Positions 3,998 to 32,838 of a DNA stretch of 64,000 nucleotides are shown in pieces. Under the pieces are notes generated by a model. That model did no database searches. It saw only the letters and a list, made by a program, of their open reading frames with translations, and was not told the DNA's origin. A program made the translations under genes and the position numbers. How positions within the stretch are numbered: position 1 is the stretch's first letter; each line of letters opens with the position of its first letter. Source of the stretch: Malus domestica (lineage: Eukaryota; Streptophyta; Magnoliopsida; Rosales; Rosaceae); assembly GCF_042453785.1 (NCBI RefSeq), contig NC_091669.1:10676501-10740500 (forward strand). The letters are read 5' to 3'.

Positions 3998-4329
3998 AGG
4001 AGGAGGGATTCCTCCTCAAAATGTTTTGCGGACGATTCATAAAATTTCGTGCTAATGATCGAAACCATTAATGATATAAATCATTATGGAAAGATCATCT
4101 TTATAAAAAAAATTAAAGTAATGGTTGTTAAGTCAAATAACTGCAACAAATAGATAAAACAGCTCATAATACTATTAACAATTCTTACTATATATTTTTA
4201 CACATTTTGATGATATAACGATTTCAAGTGGTGATCTTTACGTAACGACATATAATATGAACAATTCTAACGACAAACACAAAATTTTGAGAGTCCGTTA
4301 CAACACATTTTTAGGAGGATATCCTTCTC
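3998..4329. mobile_element. MITE abutting the PPR pseudogene
   Basis: Imperfect terminal inverted repeats: the left end (about 4000-4033) has GAGGAGGGATTCCTCC and the right end read in reverse has GAGAAGGATATCCTCC, each continuing to a shared CGGAC. The interior is AT-rich with no coding capacity. No target-site duplication is visible because only the right flank is ordinary sequence; the left edge coincides with the point where PPR homology ends. The family was not determined; the ends resemble the Mutator-like MITEs at 32084 and 37731. Confidence 0.6.
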
Positions 4330-5298
4330 ATCGTTTCAGTTGTAAAGTATTATTCTAAGCATATATATCAATTGCATGGCCTGTGGGATGGGGGTGGTGT
4401 TTTAATTCTTGGATTTTTTTTCATGTGGAGGTGATGATGTCATGCCTTTGCTGTCATTTGCTAATTTCTAAAACCCTAGCTAGTACATGATGTTGTCTGC
4501 AGTTAAGATTCCGGAGTTTATAACCAATACCAATGAAGAAGAAAAGTCACCATAATTTATTACAAGTCGTAAGTAGAAGACTATATAGAGACCACAAAAA
4601 AACCACACATAAGATGAACGCAGAGGATTTAATCACATGCGTAGAGAAAGAGTGGGGCTAGCTGTGACTATTTGTTTTGGTAGTGTATAGTGTGTAATGG
4701 CTAATGAAATAGACAGCTCGTATCGGTGAACTTAGGTCCCTTGTGATTGAATATCACACAACTACGAACACAAGACTTATCTGTATATATATGAGGTCCA
4801 GAAATGGGGAAGTGTATATATATTCTCGCGCATAGGATCGATGGATTACAAGTTTACAACAAACGCCACATAGAGCAGAAGAATGTAGATTTATCTGCCC
4901 AAAATAAATTGATTGAGTGTTAGTACATGTCTATGAATAAGTTAGTGGTTGGCAATGCTCACAGCATGTAATGAAGAGTTGGTCATCTGGAGCTTTCATT
5001 ATTATTAGTAAAAACTCTATATTGAAAATGATGTCAAAATAAATTTTTAGGCATGCATTAGGTGCACATACCAGCTGAATTGATTAGTACAGGGCCATTT
5101 TCTAAAAATCTCGACATCAAGATTACTTGTTCACACATTCGTAAGCAAGCTAGATTTTCAAAGAAGAGAAAATGTCACCACAAGATTTTAAGATCCGATA
5201 CGTTGAACTATTGTATTAACGAAGAACTTACAATACAAACGTTGCAAATTACGTACGGTAAAAATAAGCGAGGATAATATAAAAGCCCCCCAACCCAA
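4330..5298. other. Intergenic, no gene seen
   Basis: AT-rich sequence downstream of the UGT71 gene at 5299-6714. Short open frames only (for example 5062-5277) with no recognisable protein. Nothing else supported. Confidence 0.6.
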
Positions 5299-18494: not shown

Positions 18495-19262
18495 CTCATT
18501 CATGACTGTATGTGACTCAGTAACGTGAGAGCGTATATACGTAGTTCACTTTAACAATATACATATCAGGAAAGTATAAGACTGCAAGGTAACATATGAT
18601 ATACTGGCCTTATGACTCTCTATCTTATCCACTGCAGAGAACACATTACTGAACTCCATAGCAAACATATGATGGCCTTGATGGGAAATATATCCCATGC
18701 TGCCAATTCACATTTATATACTTACTACCAGTTTAGCAAGCATCCTTCCTAAATTATTATTGCCCAACCAATTCTAAAAATTATTATTGCCTGCTTCACA
18801 ACTTCCATATAGAATCCAGATGGCATATTCCATATTTGGGTTGTTGTACGAAAGCGACAGATATGAGATCAATACATAAGCAAGGCAAAGTTTGATAAAT
18901 ACTGAAATCCAAATAACCCAAGGATTTATACTGTAGTTGAGAATAAACCTACGTTTAGTTTGGAGACGGCAAGGAAATTCCAGTAATAAGAAAGGGGATT
19001 ACAAAAGTGTTTTACATCTCACAAACCCAAATCCCACATGCACCCAAGCTTACATAATGTGGAACCAAAAGTAAAGGAACTATGTCCTACATCATTACAT
19101 ATTCATCAGTGTTTCGCCTCTGCCAATACAAAGCTTCCATACACTGATGAACAACACAAGTTACTTTGGGTGTAGTACCAAGAAATAGACTCTTATTCAA
19201 CCACTTCTTAGCGGCTCTCGGTGCACAATTAAATGCATATAAACAAGTGTGTTAGAGAAGTC

Positions 19263-19264
<2 letters not shown>
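18495..19264. repeat. Segmental duplication, copy 2, left part
   Basis: Matches window positions 1 to about 771 almost base for base. Ends with the LINE target-site duplication TGTGTTAGAGAAGTCAA at 19248-19264. Continues on the far side of the insertion at 27417. Confidence 0.95.
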
Positions 19265-19294
<30 letters not shown>

Positions 19295-19889
19295 AGCCTT
19301 TTCCCACTAAGTGGGGTCGGCTATATGAATCCTAGAACGCCATTGCGCTCGGTTTTGTGTCATGTCCTCCGTTAGATCCAAGTACTCTAAGCCTTTTCTT
19401 AGAGTCTCTTCCAAAGTTTTCCTAGGTCTTCCTCTACCCCTTCGGCCCTGAACCTCTGTCCCGTAGTCACATCTTCGAACCGGAGCGTCAGTCGGCCTTC
19501 TTTGCACATGTCCAAATCACCGGAACCGATTTTCTCTCATCTTTCCTTCAATTTCGGCTACTCCTACTTTACCTCGGATATCCTCATTCTCAATCTTATC
19601 CTTTCTCGTGTGCCCACACATCCCACGAAGCATCCTCATCTCTGCTACACCCATTTTGTGTACGTGTTGATGTTTCACCGCCCAACATTCTGTGCCATAC
19701 AACATCGCTGGCCTTATTGCCGTCTTATAAAATTTTCCCTTGAGCTTCAGTGGCCTACGACGGTCACACAACAATGCTGGATGCACTCTTACACTTCATC
19801 CATCCAGCTCGTATTCTATGGTTGAGATCTCCATCTAATTCTCCGTTCTCTTGTAAGATAGATCCTAGGTAGCGAAAACGGTCGCTTTT
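19265..19889 (-). mobile_element. RTE LINE 3' end with (TTG)n tail, truncated
   Basis: On the minus strand this encodes the last about 190 residues of the LINE protein (through [14 protein letters not shown] and RIHIADPT, then a stop), with frame breaks, followed by a short 3' end and a (TTG)n tail (the (CAA)n run at 19262-19294 on the plus strand). It is homologous to 24161-24740 with scattered differences, so it comes from a different LINE copy. The junction to LTR-like sequence lies near 19889, in a shared TTTGTG. Confidence 0.9.
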
Positions 19890-21329
19890 TGTGATCTTCG
19901 CTAAATTGCTCCGGTCATTAGTGTGGATAAGTATATAAATGGATAGAGATAGGAAAGCAAACACAAGATGTACGTGGTTCACCCAGATTGGCTACGTCCA
20001 CGGAATAGAAGAGTTCTCATTAATTGTGAAGGGTTTACACAAGTACATAGGTTCAAGCTCTCCTTTAGTGAGTACAAGTGAATGATTTAGTACAAATGAC
20101 ATTAGAGTACAAATGACATTAGGAAATATTGTGGGAGAATGATCTCGTAATCACGAAACTTCTAAGTATCGGAGTGTGGTATCATCTTGACTTGCCTTAT
20201 CTGTCTCATAGGTAGATGTGGCAACTTCTCTGGAAGTACTCTTCCTCCATCCAGGGGTGGTATCTTTAACTGGTGGAGATGCACAAGGTAATGTATCAAT
20301 TTCACTTGAAGCTTACTTGTAGTTTCAGGCTTGGTCAAGCGCGATACAAACCATGTAGTAGGAGTCCCCCAAGTCGCCGAGCTAGGGGATTTGCTGAAAG
20401 AGGTGACAGACAAGGTAAGCAATCAGAGCTCCGGCTGATTGTTCACCTTCTCCCCATCTTGCAGCAGCATGAAGGATAAAGAGAAGAAAAATGAGAAGAG
20501 ATGATATGGGATACTTTTGCTTTTGAAGAAGTAACTTTCCACAGGCTTATTCTTGAACTGAGCTGGAGGGTTTTCTGGTTTCCTCCAGAGTATAAGGCCG
20601 ACTGAAGAATTTGAGGGTCAAAACAAGTCCATCAAATCTAGAGTACGTTCGACCCTGCTGATATGGGATACTTTTGCTTTTGACAGAGTAATGGATGGAT
20701 CGGCACGTGTGCTGTTACGCTTGTCTCCACATGCTTCCTTGTATCCTTCGCACTTGCCCTATCTGTTCCTCAAGCAGATGCGGTATCTTCCCTGGCAACA
20801 TAAGATGTTGAAGATGAGTACTCGAGAGCAATGCCAGGTAAGTAATCAGATAAGGGGTTCCAGGCTGTCAGTTCCTGGCTGGGAGCTTGATTTCCAGTGC
20901 TGACTGATTGCTCTCTTTCTCCTTGTCTTGCAGGTAAAAACAAGGCCAAAGGAAAAGACAGGGAAAAAGCATGATATGGGATACTCTTGCTTTTAACCCT
21001 GATGATATGAGATATTCTTGCTCTAGTATAGCTTGTTTGCAAAGGTATTATCGGGGGGAAAGAAAGCTGAATATTTCGAAAGGCTTCGTTGGGAGTGCCC
21101 TCTCAGATACGAGGAAGGGTTGAGCATTTTTGCAGGTCTGCCTGTCCGTTGGGGATGGAGGTCGACATATATAGGAGTCTCCCTAACAACAAGTAGTAAT
21201 GCTATTCCTTTACCCTGCTTGGTCATAGCACGGTAGTGGGAGCTGCCAGCTTCACATGTTTTAACTCTGTCAGAGCACTTTGAAAAAGTGGTATGTGTTA
21301 TCTGGCTCTCGAGATTCGGAGAACGATGC

Positions 21330-23060
21330 TTCTTCGATTTTTGAGAAAGCAATCATGGTGGGGGTCTGGCTCTCGAGATTCGGGGAGCAGTGTCTCTTCG
21401 ATTTTTGAGAAAGTAATCATGTTGGGAGTCTGGCTCTCGAGATTCGGAAGGCGGTGCCTCTTCGATTTTGGAGTAAGCAATCTTGTTGGGAGTGTTTTCT
21501 CGGATGTGAGTAAATGTTGGGCATGTTTGCTAGTCTACCTTGCCACGAAGCACGGAGGTTGACACACAGGGACTTTCCAATTATCCAGCAGTGGTACTGT
21601 TCCTTTACCCTTGTGGGTAATAATATGGTAGCTAGACCTTCAAAATTTATGTGTCTAAACTTTGTTAGTGCTGTTTCTTTGCTATTCTTTTACCTTTCTT
21701 GGTCAGAGCGATGTAGTGGGAGCTGCAAGCTTCACGTGCTCAACTTTGGCAGAGACTTTGACAAAGTTATCTGTGGTACCCATGAGCTATTGTTGCGTGT
21801 GGGAAGTGGGTGATTGAACAGTAAGATTCATGTGCTTTCTACTTCACCAGAAGTCTTCGACAGAATGCCCATAATTTCCGCAAAGCTAAGTGTGCGTGTG
21901 ACAGGTGCTGACAAGGCTAGAAAAGAAGGTGCCTCTTCGATTTCTGAGATCGGCCCTCGTGGTCTCTGAGCAGCCCAGCTTTTGAGAAAGCGAGCGCCTC
22001 TTCGATTGATTCGGATAACGATGCCTCTTCGATTTTTGAGAAAGCGATCATGCTGGGGGTCTGGCTCTCGAGATTCGGGGAGCAGTGTCTCTTCGATTTT
22101 TGAGAAAGTAATCATGTTGGGAGTCTGGCTCTCGAGATTCGGAGGGCGGTGCCTCTTCGATTTTGGAGCAAGCAATCTTGTTGGGAGTTTTCTCGAATGT
22201 GAGTAAAGGTTGGGCATGTTTGCTAATCTACCTTGCCACGAAGCACAGAGGTTGACACACAGGGACTTTCCAATTATCCAGCAATGGTACTGTTCCTTTA
22301 CCCTCTCTTCGATTTTTGAGAAAGTAGTTATGTTGGGAGTCTGGCTCTCGAGATTCGGAGGACGGTGCCTCTTCGATTTTGGAGCAAGCAATCTTATTGG
22401 GAGTGTTTTCTCGAATGTGAGTAAAGGTTGGGCATGTTTGCTAGTCTACCTTGCCACGAGGCACAGAGGTTGACACACAGGGACTTTCCAATTATCCAAC
22501 AGTGGTACTGTTCCTTTACCCTTGTGGGTAATAATATGGTAGCTAGACCTTCAAAATTTATGGGTCTAAACTTTGTTAGTGCTGTTTCTTTGCTATTCTT
22601 TTACCCTTCTTGGTCAGAGCGATGTAGTGGGAGCTGCAAGCTTCACGTGCTCAACTTTGGCAGAGAACTTTGGCAAAGTTATCTGTGGTACCCATGAGCT
22701 ATTGCTGCGTGTGGGAAGTGGGTGATTGGACAGTAAGATTCATGTGTTTTCTACTTCCCCAGAAGTCTTCGACAGAATACCCATAATTTCCGTAAAGCTG
22801 AGTGTGCGTGTGACAGGTGCTGACAAGGCTGGAAAAGTAGGTGCCTCTTCGATTTCTGAGATCGGCCCTCGTGGTCTCTGAGGAGCCCAGCTTTTGAGGA
22901 AGGGAGCGCCTCTTCGATTTCTGAGATCGGCTTTCGTGGTCTTTGAGCAGCCCAACTTTTGAGAAAGCAAACACCTCTTCGATTTATGAGATCAACCCTC
23001 GTGGTCTCTAAGCAGCCCAGCTTTTGAGAAAGCAAACGCCTCTTCGATTTCTGAGCAAGC
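21330..23060. repeat. Array of CTTCGATTT-containing repeats
   Basis: About fifteen occurrences of CTTCGATTT or close variants. They fall in larger units: a block at about 21380-21830 is repeated at about 22090-22310 and 22310-22735. The last part is a clean 65-bp tandem repeat with starts at 22843, 22908, 22973 and a partial unit at 23038. The units encode no long frame in the sense direction. They lie inside the LTR-type fossil, upstream of its open frame. Confidence 0.85.
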
Positions 23061-23216
23061 GCCTCTTCGATGTCTGAAGCTCCGTTGAGTGCAGCTTTTT
23101 ATAGGGGCTGGCATTAAGTTCCAAAGCACACTTGAATCTCCACCAGTAGAAGCTCCATTCTTGCACTTCTAAGATCTTGATTTGTCCGACCTCTTCTCTC
23201 TTCAATACCTTTGAAA

Positions 23217-23891
23217 ATGTCTGGCCCCTCCGACCGTCGTTTTGACTTGAACCTTGTTGAAGAGGCAGCCCCGCCTTCTCCAGACAACATATGGCGCCCA
23301 TCCTTCGTCTCCCCTACTGGTCCTCTTACCGTTGGGGATTCCGTGATGAAGAATGATATGACCGCTGCGGTGGTGGCCAGGAACCTTCTCACTCCCAAAG
23401 ATAACAGACTACTTTCCAAACGGTCTGATGAGTTAGCTGTTAAGGATTCACTGGCTCTCAGTGTTCAGTGTGCAGGTTCTGTGTCTAATATGGCCCAACG
23501 CCTATTTGCTCGAACCCGCCAAGTTGAATCATTGGCGGCTGAAGTGATGAGTCTCAAACAGGAGATTAGAGGGCTCAAGCATGAGAATAAACAGTTGCAC
23601 CGGCTCGCACATGACTATGCTACAAACATGAAGAGGAAACTTGACCAGATGAAGGAAACTGATGGTCAGGTTTTACTTGATCATCAGAGATTTGTGGGTT
23701 TGTTCCAAAGGCATTTATTGCCTTCGTCTTCTGGGGCTGTACCGCGTAATGAAGCTCCAAATGATCAACCTCTGATGCCTCCTCCTTCTAGGGTTCTGTC
23801 CAGTACTGAGGCTCCGAATGATCCCCCTCCGATGCCTTCTCTTTCTGGGGCTCTACTGACTGCTGAGACTTCTCCTAAGCAACCTTTGTGA
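23217..23891 (+). CDS. Coiled-coil protein of the LTR-type element, unknown function
   Basis: Open frame of 224 residues from MSGPSDRRFDLNLVEE (an in-frame ATG lies two codons earlier, at 23211). Visible parts: an acidic N-terminus; a polar central stretch; a predicted coiled coil at about residues 95-140 (QVESLAAEVMSLKQEI, then LKHENKQLHRLA); and a C-terminal tail with a repeated proline-rich unit (EAPNDQPLMPPPS, then EAPNDPPPMPSLS). No zinc knuckle, protease or polymerase motif. I associate it with multi-copy, unnamed proteins in apple annotations, but could not check this. It sits after a long repeat-rich leader. It could be a gag-like remnant of the element or a captured host frame. Confidence 0.55.
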   Translation: MSGPSDRRFDLNLVEEAAPPSPDNIWRPSFVSPTGPLTVGDSVMKNDMTAAVVARNLLTPKDNRLLSKRSDELAVKDSLALSVQCAGSVSNMAQRLFARTRQVESLAAEVMSLKQEIRGLKHENKQLHRLAHDYATNMKRKLDQMKETDGQVLLDHQRFVGLFQRHLLPSSSGAVPRNEAPNDQPLMPPPSRVLSSTEAPNDPPPMPSLSGALLTAETSPKQPL

Positions 23892-24151
23892 AGGCTCCAT
23901 CTTGTTTGTTTATTTTGACTCATGTATATGTATATATTTGTAGCTTATCGGGGATATCAATAAATAAGTTTTCCTTCATTTCAACGTATTGTGTTAAATA
24001 CACCAAAGCCTTCTTCGCTAAGTTCTTTGAATTTTCTTTTGTTGAAGCTTGTATGTTGAAGCTTTCTGAGTGGAGCATGTAGGTTGGGGTAGTGTTCCCT
24101 TAATTTTTCGAGTGAGGAAAACTTCTCGGTTGGAGACTTGGAAAATCCAAG

Positions 24152-27100
24152 TCACTGAGTGGGATCGGCTATATGAATCTTAGAACGCCATTGTGCTCGG
24201 TCCTGTGTCATGTCCTTCGTTAGATCCAAGTACTCTAAGTCTTTTCTTAGAGTCTCTTCCAAAGTTTTCCTAGGTCTTCCTCTACCCCTTCGGCCCTGAA
24301 CCTCTGTCCCATAGTCGCATCTTCTAATCGGAGCGTCAGTAGGCCTTCTTTGCACATGTCCAAACCACCGTAACCGATTTTCTCTCATCTTTCCTTCAAT
24401 TTCGGCTACTCCTACTTTACCCCGGATATCCTCATTCCTAATCTTATCCTTTCTCGTGTGCCCACACATCCAACGAAGCATCCTCATCTCCGCTACACCC
24501 ATTTTGTGTACGTGTTGATGCTTCACCGCCCAACATTCTGTGCCATATAGCATCGCCGGCCTTATTGCCGTCCTATAAAATTTTCCCTTGAGCTTCAGTG
24601 GCATACGGCGATCACACAACACGCCAGCTGCACTCTTCCACTTCATCCATCCAGCTTGTATTCTATGGTTGAGATCTCCATCTAATTCTCCGTTCTTTTG
24701 CAAGATAGATCCTAGGTAACGAAAACGGTCGCTCTTTGGTATTTCTTGATCTCCGATCCTCACCCCTAACTCGTTTTGGCCTCCATCTGCACTGAACTTG
24801 CACTCCATATATTCTGTCTTTGATCGGCTTAGGCGAAGACCTTTAGATTCCAACACTTCTCTCCAAAGGTTAAGCTTTGCATTTACCCCTTCCTGAGTTT
24901 CATCTATCAACACTATATCGTCTGCGAAAAGCATACACCAAGGAATATCATCTTGAATATGTCCTGTTAACTCATCCATTACCAACGCAAAAAGGTAAGG
25001 ACTTAAGGATGAGCCTTGATGTAATCCTACAGTTATGGGAAAGCTTTCGGTTTGTCCTTCATGAGTTCTTACGGCAGTCTTTGCTCCTTCATACATATCC
25101 TTTATAGCTTGGATATATGCTACTCGTACTCCTTTCTTCTCTAAGATCCTCCAAAGAATGTCTCTTGGGACCCTATCATACGCTTTTTCCAAATCTATAA
25201 AGACCATGTGTAAATCCTTTTTCCCATCTCTATATCTTTCCATCAATCTTCGTAAGAGATAGATTGCCTCCATGGTTGAGCGCCCTGGCATGAACCCGAA
25301 TTGGTTGTCCGAAACCCGTGTCTCTTGCCTCAATCTATGCTCAATGCTCTCTCCCAGAGCTTCATTGTATGACTCATTAACTTAATACCCCTATAGTTCA
25401 TGCAATTTTGTACGTCGCCCTTATTCTTGTAGATAGGCACCAAAGTGCTCGTTCGCCACTCATTTGGCATCTTCTTCGTTTTCAAAATCCTATTGAAAAG
25501 GTCAGTGAGCCATGTTATACCTGTCTCTCCCAAAACTTTCCACACTTCGATTGGTATATCGTCTGGGCCTATTGCTTTTCTATGCTTCATCTTCTTCAAA
25601 GCTACCACCACTTCTTCCTTCCGGATTCGACGATAAAAAGAGTAGTTTCTACACTCTTCTGAGTTACTCAACTCCCCTAAAGAAGCACTCCTTTCATGTC
25701 CTTCATTGAAAAGATTATGAAAATAACCTCTCCATCTGTCTTTAACCGCGTTCTCTGTAGCAAGAACCTTTCCATCCTCATCCTTGATGCACCTCACTTG
25801 GTTTAGGTCCCTTGTCTTCTTTTCCCTTGCTCTAGCTAGTTTATAGATATCCAACTCTCCTTCTTTGGTATCTAGTCGTTTATACATATCGTCGTAAGCC
25901 GCTAACTTAGCTTCTCTGACCGCTTTCTTCGCCTCTTGCTTCGCTTTTCTATACCTTTCACCATTTTCATCGGTCCTCTCCTTGTATAAGGCTTTACAAC
26001 ATTCCTTCTTAGCCTTCACCTTTGTTTGTACCTCCTCATTCCACCACCAAGATTCCTTTTGGTGTGGGGCAAAGCCCTTGGACTCTCCTAATACCTCTTT
26101 TGCTACTTTTCGGATACAACTAGCCATGGAATCCCACATTTGGCTAGCTTCCCCCTCTCTATCCCACACACATTGGGTGATTACCTTCTCTTTGAAAATG
26201 GCTTGTTTTTCTTCTTTTAGATTCCACCATCTAGTCCTTGGGCACTTCCAAGTCTTGTTCTTTTGTCTCCCTCTTTTGATATGTACATCCATCACCAACA
26301 AGCGATGTTGATTAGCCACGCTCTCTCCTGGTATAACTTTGCAATCCTTACAAGTTATACGATCCCCTTTCCTCATTAGAAGAAAATCTATTTGTGTTTT
26401 TGACGACCCACTCTTGTAGGTGATCACATGTTCTTCTCTCTTCTTAAAGAAGGTGTTGGCTAAGAAGAGATCATATGCCATTGCAAAATCCAAGATAGCT
26501 TCCCCATCCTCGTTTCTCTCTCCAAAACCATGGCCACCATGAAAACCTCCATAGTTGCCTGTCTCCCTGCCCACGTGTCCATTTAGATCTCCTCCTATAA
26601 ATAACTTCTCCGTCTGAGCAATTCCTTGCACCAAGTCTCCAAGGTCTTCCCAAAATTTCTCCTTCGAACTCGTATCCAACCCTACTTGAGGTGCGTACGC
26701 ACTAATCACATTGATAAGTTCTTGTCCTATTACAATCTTGATTGCCATGATTCTATCTCCTACCCTCTTGACATCTACAACATCTTGTGTCAAGGTCTTG
26801 TCCACGATGATGCCAACACCGTTTCTCGTTTTATTTGTGCCCGAATACCAAAGTTTAAACCCTGAGTTTTCTAGATCCTTTGCCTTACTACCAACCCACT
26901 TAGTTTCTTGTAGGCACATAATATTTATCCTTCTCCTCACCATAACTTCCACTACTTCCATAGATTTTCCCGTTAAGGTTCCTATATTCCACGTTCCTAA
27001 ACGCATTTTGCTCTCTTGAACTCTACCCTTCTGTCCTAGCTTCTTCACCCTCCCCCGTCTAATAGGATCAAAGTACTTCTTTTGTGTGTCCCGTGTAAAG

Positions 27101-27309
27101 TTGATAGGAGCATATGCTCCCAAACAACTTTGAGTGGAGTCGTTCGAAAAGAAGTTTCTACGGCCCCCTTGCTCATTTAACACTGCATCCGGGTGCCGAT
27201 GGAGATACAGCGACCCTTGCTCACTTATCACTGTGCTCGGGCCACACAGCGCGCCACTTACGGGTGACGCCCTAGCTTTAGCGCGATTTTGTTCTGGATT
27301 CATTTTCAT
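24152..27309 (-). pseudogene. RTE-clade LINE ORF: endonuclease plus reverse transcriptase, one frameshift
   Basis: Two abutting frames make up one LINE protein. The first (27309-25330, 659 aa) has an N-terminal extension. Its APE-type endonuclease carries TWNIGTLTG, CLQETKW, GGDLNGHVG and a closing NQHRLLVMDV. The start of the reverse transcriptase follows (AIGPDDIPIEVWK, LVPIYKNKGD). The second (25333-24152, 393 aa) has the remaining RT motifs: [37 protein letters not shown] and the catalytic FADD in [10 protein letters not shown]. It ends with the [14 protein letters not shown] tail usual in plant RTE elements. A one-base loss near 25345 separates them, so the copy is inactive as read, though otherwise well preserved. 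Its own 3' end is replaced by antisense LTR-type sequence within the last codons. Confidence 0.9.
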
Positions 27310-27416
27310 AAGGATTCGACGTGATCATGGAGTGCCGGCTGTCGACTACCTGACGCCCTCCCCCTCCTCCTTTATCCGGGCTTGGGACCGGCAATGTAAA
27401 ATTACATAGGCGGAGA
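27310..27416 (-). other. 5' untranslated end of the RTE LINE
   Basis: About 107 bases between the first Met and the 5' edge of the insertion, including GTCAGGTAGTCGACAGCCGG on the minus strand. Followed directly by the right-hand target-site duplication, so the LINE 5' end appears complete. Confidence 0.75.
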
Positions 27417-30400
27417 TGTGTTAGAGAAGTCAAATAAAAGAAAATCAGTGTACCTTAGGAAGTCATATTGAATGGGCAGATAGTAGATACCAGCCTTACA
27501 AACATAGGTGACGTGAGTGATCTAAAGCTAAGTAACAAATTCAACCATAGCCAATTAGTCAGCAAAGCCACATAAATATTGCTTATAATAGCCTTCATGG
27601 GGAGACACAGCACAAAACATTAAGATTTTCAAGAGTTCTAAGTGGATCAACCATTATAATACGACAATACGAGTCACCCACGAGTAAGCCAAATGGAAGA
27701 AAATAAACTACTCGTGCAGGGTATTCCATGAAGATCAAAGTATCATTAACTAAGCATGGCCATGCGCAACACTATATACAGAAATCATGCTTTTTTAACT
27801 GACCTGAATATATGTATGAGGCGTCTTTGAGATGGCAGCTTATTAACTTGCTATGGCTCAACCGCTAGTGTCCAAAGTTCACTCTCAAAGACCATGGGGA
27901 CAGATTTAAGCGCCATCTAAAAAGAATATAACTTAGACAACTGCTGACCCGCACCAAAAGCTAAATTAGCAAGAAAGTAGATTCCAGCTGCAGATACAAA
28001 CATCACGATACATCACATAAACCTAAGATGAAGCTAAACTCAATAAAAAGACATGCCCACTGACTTGCCAGAAACCAGCCAGTCTAGTTTTAGGAAAATT
28101 CACCCTTTTAATCCAGTCCTTAACTATGTATTTTTAGGAATCTTGAGAAAATGCATATCATAGACGATTAAAGTTGGATCGACAATCACAAACGATAAAC
28201 TTACATGAAGGGCAGTTTTCCATGGATAGATAGTTCTTGTTATGATCCTGCAAAGGAGTTGTGGATGCTGCAATGCGAGCATCGAATGGTGGATAATTTG
28301 CATGCAGACTTGTCAAAATAGTTTACCACATTGAATGACACCACAAGCTGGGAAAAGATCTTTTTTCAAGAATTCTTCATCAGTCATAAGGTTCCAAGAT
28401 TGCATCTAAGGAAGAATTGAGAGAAGGCCTATAACCAGTATCTTTCATCTTCACAGTCAATTCCTCCAATATATCATATATCTCATCACCCTGAGGATGG
28501 TTTTGGTCCCTAGATGTGAAACAGTTCAAAAAACCGCTAATATCAATCCAACTACATCCAGTCTCCTTCCTCAAACCCTTTTCCCTCATTTGTTTCCTCA
28601 CATTATCCACGTTTTCCCACTTGCCTTCCTCGGCATACATATTTGAGAGTAAAACATGGTAGCCCGTTTTGCCATTTGCTGCCTCTAGTTCAAGCAATTT
28701 CCCAGCAACAATCTTTCCCAATTCAAAATGTTTATGAATTCTGCACGCCCCAAGAAGTGAGCCCCAAATTTCCATCGCATCACCCTCTTCGCCCAACCCT
28801 TTGACAAACTCGTAGGCTTCAACCATTCTCCCAACCCTCCCTAACATGTCTGCTATACAGCAATAGTGTGCCGTTAGTGGTTCAATATTGTATTCCCTTT
28901 TCATTGAATCATATATCGAAAGACCTTCGTTAACCAAACCAGCATAACTGCAGGCAGACAAGACTGCAACAAAGGTTATGGCATCCGGTGCAATGCCAGA
29001 TTTCTGCATTGAGTGAAACAAAGAGAGAGCTCTCTCACCCATTCCATGCTGACCGTAGCCCAGTATCATTGTGGTATATGTGACAGAGTTCTTCTCATGG
29101 GATCCAGCGAAAACATTTTCAGCATAAGTGACTGCACCACATTTGGAATACATGTCAATTAGAGCAGATCCCACGAAGACGTTTTGGTCAAGGTAGTGGC
29201 GGATAGAGAACCCATGGAGTTGCTTACCCATATCTATGTTTCCCACTATATTACAAGCTGGGAGAACCGATGCTAAGGTCACAGCATTTGGGATTAGATT
29301 TTGCTCAAGCATCTGCCTAAAGACAAAGAAAGCTTCTTCAGATAGCCCATTCTGTGTGTACCCAGCAATCATAGAATTCCAAGTAGCCTGATCTCTATCA
29401 CGGCTGTAGTCTTTTTTGAAAACCCGTTCTGCGATCCTTACTGAGCCAGATTTAGCATACATATCGATGAGATAACTGTCCATCCCCTCAAATTGTATGT
29501 CATGCCTAATAAGATAAGCATGAGTCTGCTTTCCAATATCTGGATTTCTAAGATTTGATGAAGCCGAAAGTAGAGCAGTTACAGTTACCGAATCAATCAT
29601 GAACCTTTGCTTTTGCATCTCATAAACAAGCATCAAAGCTTCATCATCTAAACCATTTTGCACGAATGCAGAAATCATCGTATTCCATGAAACAACATCC
29701 CTCTCAGGCATCTTATGAAAAATTTTGAATGACATGTCAACAGAATTGCACCTTGAATACATTACGATAGTCGCATTGAGTAAAATAACGGGCATCAATC
29801 TCAAATGCTTGATGATAAAAGCATGCAGCTGTCCGGCTAATTCCAACTGTTGCATCTGTGAACATGCAGTTAAAACTGATAGGAAAGTCACCTCATCAAG
29901 AATAGCCACTTCTGAGTTTACAGCTTGAAAGAAGAGGTCGATCGCTTCAATAGGACGGTTGTTTTGAACATATGCACCGATCATAGTGTTCCAAATCTCT
30001 GTATTTCTCTCCGAACAATGGTAAAAAATCTTCCTAGCATATTCAAGGCAACCAAGCTCGGCATACATAAATATTGCCGAGCTCACAACAAACAAGTCAG
30101 TCACGTATTCCCCACCCAACCTAAGAAGCATACCGTGTAGAACATTCGCGTTCTTATAGTCTCCCATAGCGGAAAGCGCAGGGAAAACATTGACAAAACT
30201 GACAGCACTCGGTGTTATTCTCATTCCCATCATCATCCTAAACTGCTTCACTGCTTCTGCATATCTTTCGGTTTTAACATACCAAGAAACCAGCGTATTC
30301 CAAGCAACCACATTCCTCTTGCGCATCGTATCAAACACCCTACGCACTAAATCGTACTGTGAATAATGAAAGTCATTATAACAAGCAGAGTACATATTCA

Positions 30401-32323: not shown

Positions 32324-32838
32324 TGTTGATGCACAAAATCAGTGAGGACTTTGGTACAACAGAAAGTGTTAAATTTGTGACCTTCGCTAGATTGCTCTGG
32401 TCACTAGTGTGGATAAGTATGCAAATGGATAGGGACAAGGAAGCAAACACAAGATATACGTGGTTCATCCAGATTTGCTACGTCCACGGAGTAGAGGAGT
32501 TCTCATTAATTGTGAAGGGTTTACACAAGTACATAGGTTCAAGTTCTCCTTTAGTGAGTACTAGTGAATGATTTAGTACAAATGACATTAGGAAATATTG
32601 TGAGAGAATGATCTCTATTTATAGAAGAGAGTTTCTAGTTTCATTCTGACATTGACACGTGTCGTGTTGTGATTGGCTTTTGATGTTGACATGTGTCGCG
32701 CTATGATTGGCTTTTGATGTCGACACGTGTCGCGCTGTGATTAGCCTCCTGGTTGGAGGGAAACTCTTCTGGATCGTTGACGGTATAATGTTGACCAGTG
32801 CTCAGTAGTTTCGGGATTGGTCAAGTTTAGTACAAACA
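32324..32838 (+). mobile_element. Solo LTR
   Basis: 515 bp with canonical ends TGTTGATGCAC and TAGTACAAACA, flanked by the 5-base duplication GTATT (32319-32323 and 32839-32843). No internal region, so it is a solo LTR left by recombination. The same LTR family forms the start of the element nested in the LINE at 19890. Superfamily not determined; TGTT...AACA ends are common in plant LTR retrotransposons. Confidence 0.85.

Follow-up and report, generated by a model that had tools for sequence, protein, structure and literature searches.

A composite element in apple very probably belongs, as a young copy, to a high-copy family of chimeric LINEs

We analysed a window of 64,000 nucleotides of Malus domestica (assembly GCF_042453785.1, contig NC_091669.1, positions 10,676,501 to 10,740,500), in which a block of 8.15 kb joins a long interspersed nuclear element (LINE) to a segment of long terminal repeat (LTR) type and to a second LINE 3′ end. 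This copy is very probably a young member of a chimeric LINE family of high copy number. The block is bracketed by a perfect 17-nt direct repeat, TGTGTTAGAGAAGTCAA, at 19248–19264 and 27417–27433. It is read on the minus strand in the order LINE 5′ end, endonuclease-reverse transcriptase frame, first LINE 3′ end (segment A), LTR-type segment, second LINE 3′ end (segment B) and (TTG)n tail. The LTR-type segment measures 4.27 kb (19890–24154) and separates two LINE 3′-end copies (19305–19891 and 24153–24738) that are 93.4% identical over 587 columns. A preliminary description of this DNA had reported the 17-bp duplication around the whole block, the same succession of parts, a duplicated LINE end of about 590 bp with scattered differences and insertion of the block as one unit by LINE retrotransposition, and our analysis agrees on each of these. 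It had also placed the inner junctions, J1 near 19889 and J2 near 24155, in short shared sequences, as we find below.

Junctions and tails were counted genome-wide by pattern matching with at most 3 mismatches, reversed patterns serving as control. J1 was found at 2,483 sites, J2 at 2,476 and the LINE tail of the subfamily at 4,247, while the reversed patterns gave 0; the frequency of J1 is hence 58% of that of the tail. The proposal to look for the same order and the same junctions elsewhere was thereby amply borne out, each junction having about 2,480 sites; the copies examined kept the order of LINE with endonuclease-reverse transcriptase frame, LTR-type segment of about 4 kb and 5′-truncated second LINE 3′ end with (TTG)n tail. 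The idea that a transduction or template switch took place in a single event at this very locus fails on the same number, the chimera being older. With sequence queries around J1 (19830–19960) and J2 (24080–24230) we found at least 40 exact copies of each, among the best 40 of 351 and the best 40 of 1,323 candidates, respectively. The first set of loci fetched comprised 38 for J1 (33 distinct sites, window included) and 30 for J2 (window included), some of which are parts of one element. A co-linear match to the window copy in a single piece was observed in 64 of these 68, and in two pieces in L042, L047, L054 and L063. J1 loci were 97.8–99.7% identical to the window copy and J2 loci 98.1–99.5% over their main piece, the small pieces reaching 96.2–97.4% (L042, L047 and L063) or 100% (L054). 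In L054 and L047 a 5′ part of the LINE is joined near 25.0 or 24.8 kb after a gap of 2.3 or 1.6 kb, and the breaks differ. L042 and L063 have in common a rearrangement in the insert near 22925–22974, perhaps a subfamily mark. L020, considered as a 5′ truncation, was rejected, its sequence resuming after loss of part of the repeats.

On contig C1, an exact J2 stood on the same strand for 49 of the 100 exact tails listed, always 4.0–5.05 kb apart, against 0–3 of 100 in five shifted controls. The tail-to-J2 distances, about 4.02 to 5.05 kb, group into classes, which means that the insert is not of constant length; the longest class (5,040–5,054) holds 13 of the 49 copies. This suggests that the length classes are subfamilies produced by gain or loss of insert repeats. 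J1 was present in all 4 composites taken from three other length classes. It was also present in 3 of 6 copies whose tails had no exact J2 partner, the rest being two simple LINEs and one short copy.

The unit inserts as a LINE, with its own target duplications, a 3′ tail and scattered 5′ truncations. Exact target duplications of 13–20 nt, all different, were found in 10 of the 14 testable end pairs (16 pairs tried); the probability that 13 nt agree by chance in such stretches is estimated at about 5e-5 per pair. Two long-form copies on C1, 97–98% identical to the window copy at the 5′ end, extend as far as the LINE 5′ end and are flanked by duplications of 19 and 14 nt (by eye), and L111 is a third C1 copy reaching this region. 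Among the 30 J2 loci, nine stop no more than 1.6 kb from J2 (two of the stops being 1 nt apart) and two jump to a 5′ part of the LINE; no flank beyond a stop matches another. Own target duplications together with scattered stops in unrelated flanks indicate that the chimera formed before the copies spread, and that it moves as a LINE. An LTR retrotransposon was rejected as the moving unit, because the duplications bracket the whole LINE composite and not two repeats. No separate duplication around the inner part was present among the window repeats of at least 15 nt that were listed, and no search was aimed at shorter ones.

The LINE 5′ end of the window copy occupies 27310–27416 on the minus strand, and six other copies match as far as 27415–27418 and have their own target duplications there. 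Its terminal 27 nt occur at 58 sites genome-wide. This is no measure of full-length copies, because three other composites extend into the 5′ end region and carry small indels there. Such changes affect the stretch corresponding to 27389–27415, which reads TGTAAAATTACATAGG in the window and TGTAAGACATAGG in L108 and L109, and which varies in L111 too.

The chimera is older than the window locus, because diverged copies carry the junctions. Five copies only 93.3–96.9% identical to the window copy by piece have J2, on which ground a young-only origin was rejected, and four copies with a divergence of about 4% near the second LINE end carry both junctions (J1 and an exact J2 partner). A midpoint-rooted tree was computed from segment A (36 of 37, one being too short), segment B (40, after 5 repeats were dropped) and two simple LINEs. 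Segments A and B formed separate clades, with support of 0.58 and 0.97, and the mean distance was 1.5% inside each and 6.6% between them. The simple LINE L101 joined the B side and L102 stood apart. As the older composites share J2, we infer from these sequences that the family goes back to one founder event.

Several observations weigh against this account of an old chimera mobilized as a LINE. Clade A has a support of only 0.58 in a tree rooted by midpoint, and no founder locus was found. On C1, the exact tail partner is missing for 16 of 65 exact J2 sites, and 3 of the 4 stretches fetched for LINE 5′ ends matched, L110 giving no match. Four of the 14 testable pairs have a duplication of 5–7 nt at best; for one of them (L031/L081) the match ends early and the right end may be missed. 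Finally, within about 1.5 kb of J1 a stop was seen in 1 of the 33 distinct loci only (L005), which is low for a LINE. J1 and J2 counts being nearly equal, 5′ truncation inside the insert must be rare.

The insert itself consists of an LTR-like part (19890–20353, the right limit being approximate) and of an internal part with degenerate tandem repeats (20354–24154). Its left end matches a stand-alone LTR-like piece of the window (32376–32615) with 86% identity over 257 columns, and lacks about the first 7 nt of that LTR, which begins at 32367. The stand-alone piece (32367–32838) has TG...CA ends, and its 5-nt flanks differ (GAAAG and GTATT). At J1 (19886–19892), the simple LINE L101 reads GCTCTTTGG, the stand-alone LTR TAAATTTGTG and the composite GCTTTTTGTG, so that 4 nt, TTTG, are common to LINE and LTR-type sequence. 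J2 (24153–24162) reads CACTGAGTGG and is shared with the LINE end (CACTAAGTGG) and the LTR-type element (CACTGAGTGG-TCGTGAG). The homology extends over ten positions with one mismatch, CACTAAGTGGGGTCGG in the LINE against CACTGAGTGGG(A/G)TCGG in the composite. The context of J2 in an LTR-type element is given by locus L075, which shows no LINE match over 9 kb and holds such an element at 90% identity (977 columns). Past the J2 point this locus continues as CACTGAGTGG-TCGTGAGAC, and two other sites (35-nt matches only) have an identical or almost identical continuation. L076 was rejected as a native J2 context: it is more likely a composite cut near J2, with a LINE tail about 5.0 kb away on the same strand. 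A full-length LTR-type element with both LTRs was not found in L075 or in the 6 kb fetched beside it, where neither LTR-like piece matched.

The insert had been described as a truncated antisense LTR-type element. Its LTR-type nature stands, as does truncation at the start, about 7 nt inside the LTR. The other end is an internal point of the element, as the continuation in L075 shows, and not an LTR edge; a pattern joining the insert end directly to the LTR start gave 0 matches with at most 2 mismatches. The antisense orientation is not established. A 224-aa open reading frame of the insert (23217–23891, no Pfam match) lies on the plus strand, opposite to the LINE, with the LTR-like part on its 5′ side; by our own reading of the sequence, a TATA-like TCTATAAATAG in the stand-alone LTR is found on the minus strand, which is that of the LINE. 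No TGG occurs in the 15 nt following the LTR-like part on the plus strand, the place expected for a primer site. The 224-aa frame stays open for 215 aa or more in 35 of the 39 loci inspected, including the non-composite L075. The comparison with L075 gave 39 codons with an amino acid change and 16 with a silent one, with 25/13/23 differences by codon position, and the frame gives no clear sign of constraint in this sequence comparison.

We examined how the LINE frame ends at J2. The reverse transcriptase part of the frame occupies 24155–25369 (PF00078, E 1.5e-31) and the endonuclease part 25333–27309 (PF03372, E 8.1e-10; 659-aa frame), both on the minus strand, and the frame of the window copy is broken near 25.37 kb. 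Segment A (24155–24738, minus strand) represents the C-terminal coding part and lacks its own last ~13 nt and tail. Segment B (19295–19889, minus strand) is 5′-truncated at 19889 and is followed by the (TTG)n tail at 19265–19294 (CAA repeats on the plus strand). The simple LINE end reads ...GAC CCC ACT TAG TGG GAA AAG GCT TTG (TTG)n, as given by segment B, and the tails of L101 and L102 agree. The composite reads ...GAT CCC ACT CAG TGA CTT at J2: the LINE stop TAG is CAG here, read as glutamine, and the next codon is a TGA stop made by the junction (24152–24154, minus strand). An intact endonuclease-reverse transcriptase frame of 1,052 aa, ending ...IHIADPTQ and running one codon past the LINE stop, was found in 4 of the 8 copies with both LINE pieces in hand. 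The fusion thus spared the protein and removed only ~13 nt and the tail. The lost part is where a reverse transcriptase of this kind would be expected to start, and segment B would supply the replacement; 3′-end recognition has been described for pairs of LINEs and short interspersed nuclear elements (SINEs) (PMC3747384).

In the mechanism that we propose, transcription would begin at the LINE 5′ end and pass through the LTR-type part before reaching the second LINE end, and the reverse transcriptase of the upstream frame would start on this second end and copy the whole RNA. The start is placed there because the first end has lost its last nucleotides and tail. As to the founder, nested insertion stands at about even chances: a 5′-truncated LINE (B) and a full LINE (A) would have entered one LTR-type element, and a deletion between CACTGAGTGG and the LINE A end would have removed the tail of A, so that transcripts ran on to B. 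J1 resembles the ordinary 5′-truncated end of a LINE in an LTR, the homology at J2 suits a small deletion, and either orientation of the LTR part is allowed. The case is nevertheless incomplete, since neither the founder locus nor a precursor with J1 only was found, and the deletion must stop exactly at the LINE stop codon, yet only such a deletion leaves a working LINE. Insertion of LINEs into LTR elements, which we count in its favour, has been described in poplar (PMC11288735).

A founder made by double template switch is quite possible, if short of probable. Here the LINE RNA would be left at TTTG, an LTR-type RNA copied, and a jump made to CACTNAGTGG near the 3′ end of a second LINE RNA, which would then be copied to its 5′ end. 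Both junctions do lie in short homologies, and J2 lands ~13 nt from the LINE tail. The difficulty is in the middle template: a normal LTR-element mRNA ends in R and is therefore without the LTR outer edge at its 3′ end, whereas this template needs the LTR nearly to its outer edge, or an antisense RNA, and a read-through or antisense transcript is required either way. Because of this unusual RNA we slightly favour nested insertion, in which a single LTR-type element received both LINEs and then underwent a small deletion at J2. For a tripartite chimera of Magnaporthe with a 14-bp duplication, a double switch has been inferred (PMC2104539). However, according to that paper the parts of known chimeras share one transcriptional orientation, and 28 different sites in 33 elements, with no microhomology, are given for the fungal ones. 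A single-event 3′ transduction at the window locus accounts for the one perfect duplication around the whole block and is still highly improbable, in view of the ~2,480 sites per junction, older copies included. Just as hard to credit is the block as an LTR retrotransposon, with the two 590-bp LINE pieces in the role of LTRs: two direct repeats, 93% identical, do bracket 4.3 kb, but the target duplications enclose the whole composite and repeat A is the end of an open LINE frame.

Comparison with known systems shows likenesses and differences. In 3′ transduction of the human L1 type, as in the composite, the LINE takes with it sequence that follows its frame, and the 3′ end used lies further downstream. 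A classical transduction does not fit the composite, in which the 3′ end of the upstream LINE is gone and the carried segment is fixed in the whole family. SVA is likewise a chimera that LINE machinery multiplies as a single unit; it encodes no reverse transcriptase, whereas half of the composite copies examined (4/8) have an intact reverse transcriptase frame. RTE LINEs typically have endonuclease and reverse transcriptase in one frame and produce target duplications. The composite has these features of the clade; its tail is (TTG)n, its target duplications vary and copies are truncated at the 5′ end. Plant RTE LINEs ending in (TTG)n are known (PMC3747384); beyond its stop codon the composite carries ~4.9 kb more, and its LINE 3′ end is present twice. 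In SINE/LINE pairs with a common 3′ end, a foreign sequence that bears a LINE 3′ end is believed to gain access to the LINE machinery through it (PMC3747384), as proposed here, although in the composite the foreign part follows a full LINE in one unit and is not a short non-coding element.

Chimeric LINE products of template switching have been described in fungi and mammals (PMC2104539). Closest to the composite are the MINEs and tripartite chimeras of Magnaporthe, in which a LINE is fused to copies of transcripts, with a 5′-truncated LINE at the 3′ end and target duplications, as one unit (PMC2104539). Their 5′ part is non-coding RNA, 31 MINEs were counted and junctions are many (PMC2104539), while the apple composite has a full coding LINE as 5′ part, LTR-type DNA in the middle and one junction pair at ~2,480 sites. 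The whole chimera lies inside one target duplication as in MINEs, and in place of many independent junctions one pair recurs, other junctions not having been searched for. In the open-licence PMC literature, searched by title and start of abstract, we found no coding LINE chimera with a piece of an LTR element as a high-copy family.

The fungal LINE chimeras of that study number 33 (PMC2104539); in apple, a single chimera gave rise to a high-copy family, some copies of which have an intact protein frame. Extrapolated at the mean tail-to-J2 distance of 4.57 kb (49 copies), the 2,476 copies would hold ~11 Mb, or 1.7% of the 651-Mb genome, the LINE part not being counted; for the GDDH18 apple genome, the share of all LINEs together has been put at 4.1% (PMC13334179). 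Repeat finders could take the two 590-bp LINE copies that flank the insert for LTRs. A LINE clade has been reported among LTR-element calls in apple (PMC11197308), and such mimicry may bear on it, as a lead. The composite also offers a clean test case for what reverse transcriptase needs at the RNA 3′ end. An autonomous LINE may have gained a 3′ region of nearly 5 kb and, in its 8-kb form, have become the main amplifier of its subfamily. With the enlarged element as the main amplifying form, the added part may help and not be mere cargo, a reading that we put forward only tentatively; if true, the help might consist in RNA stability, export, or escape from silencing.

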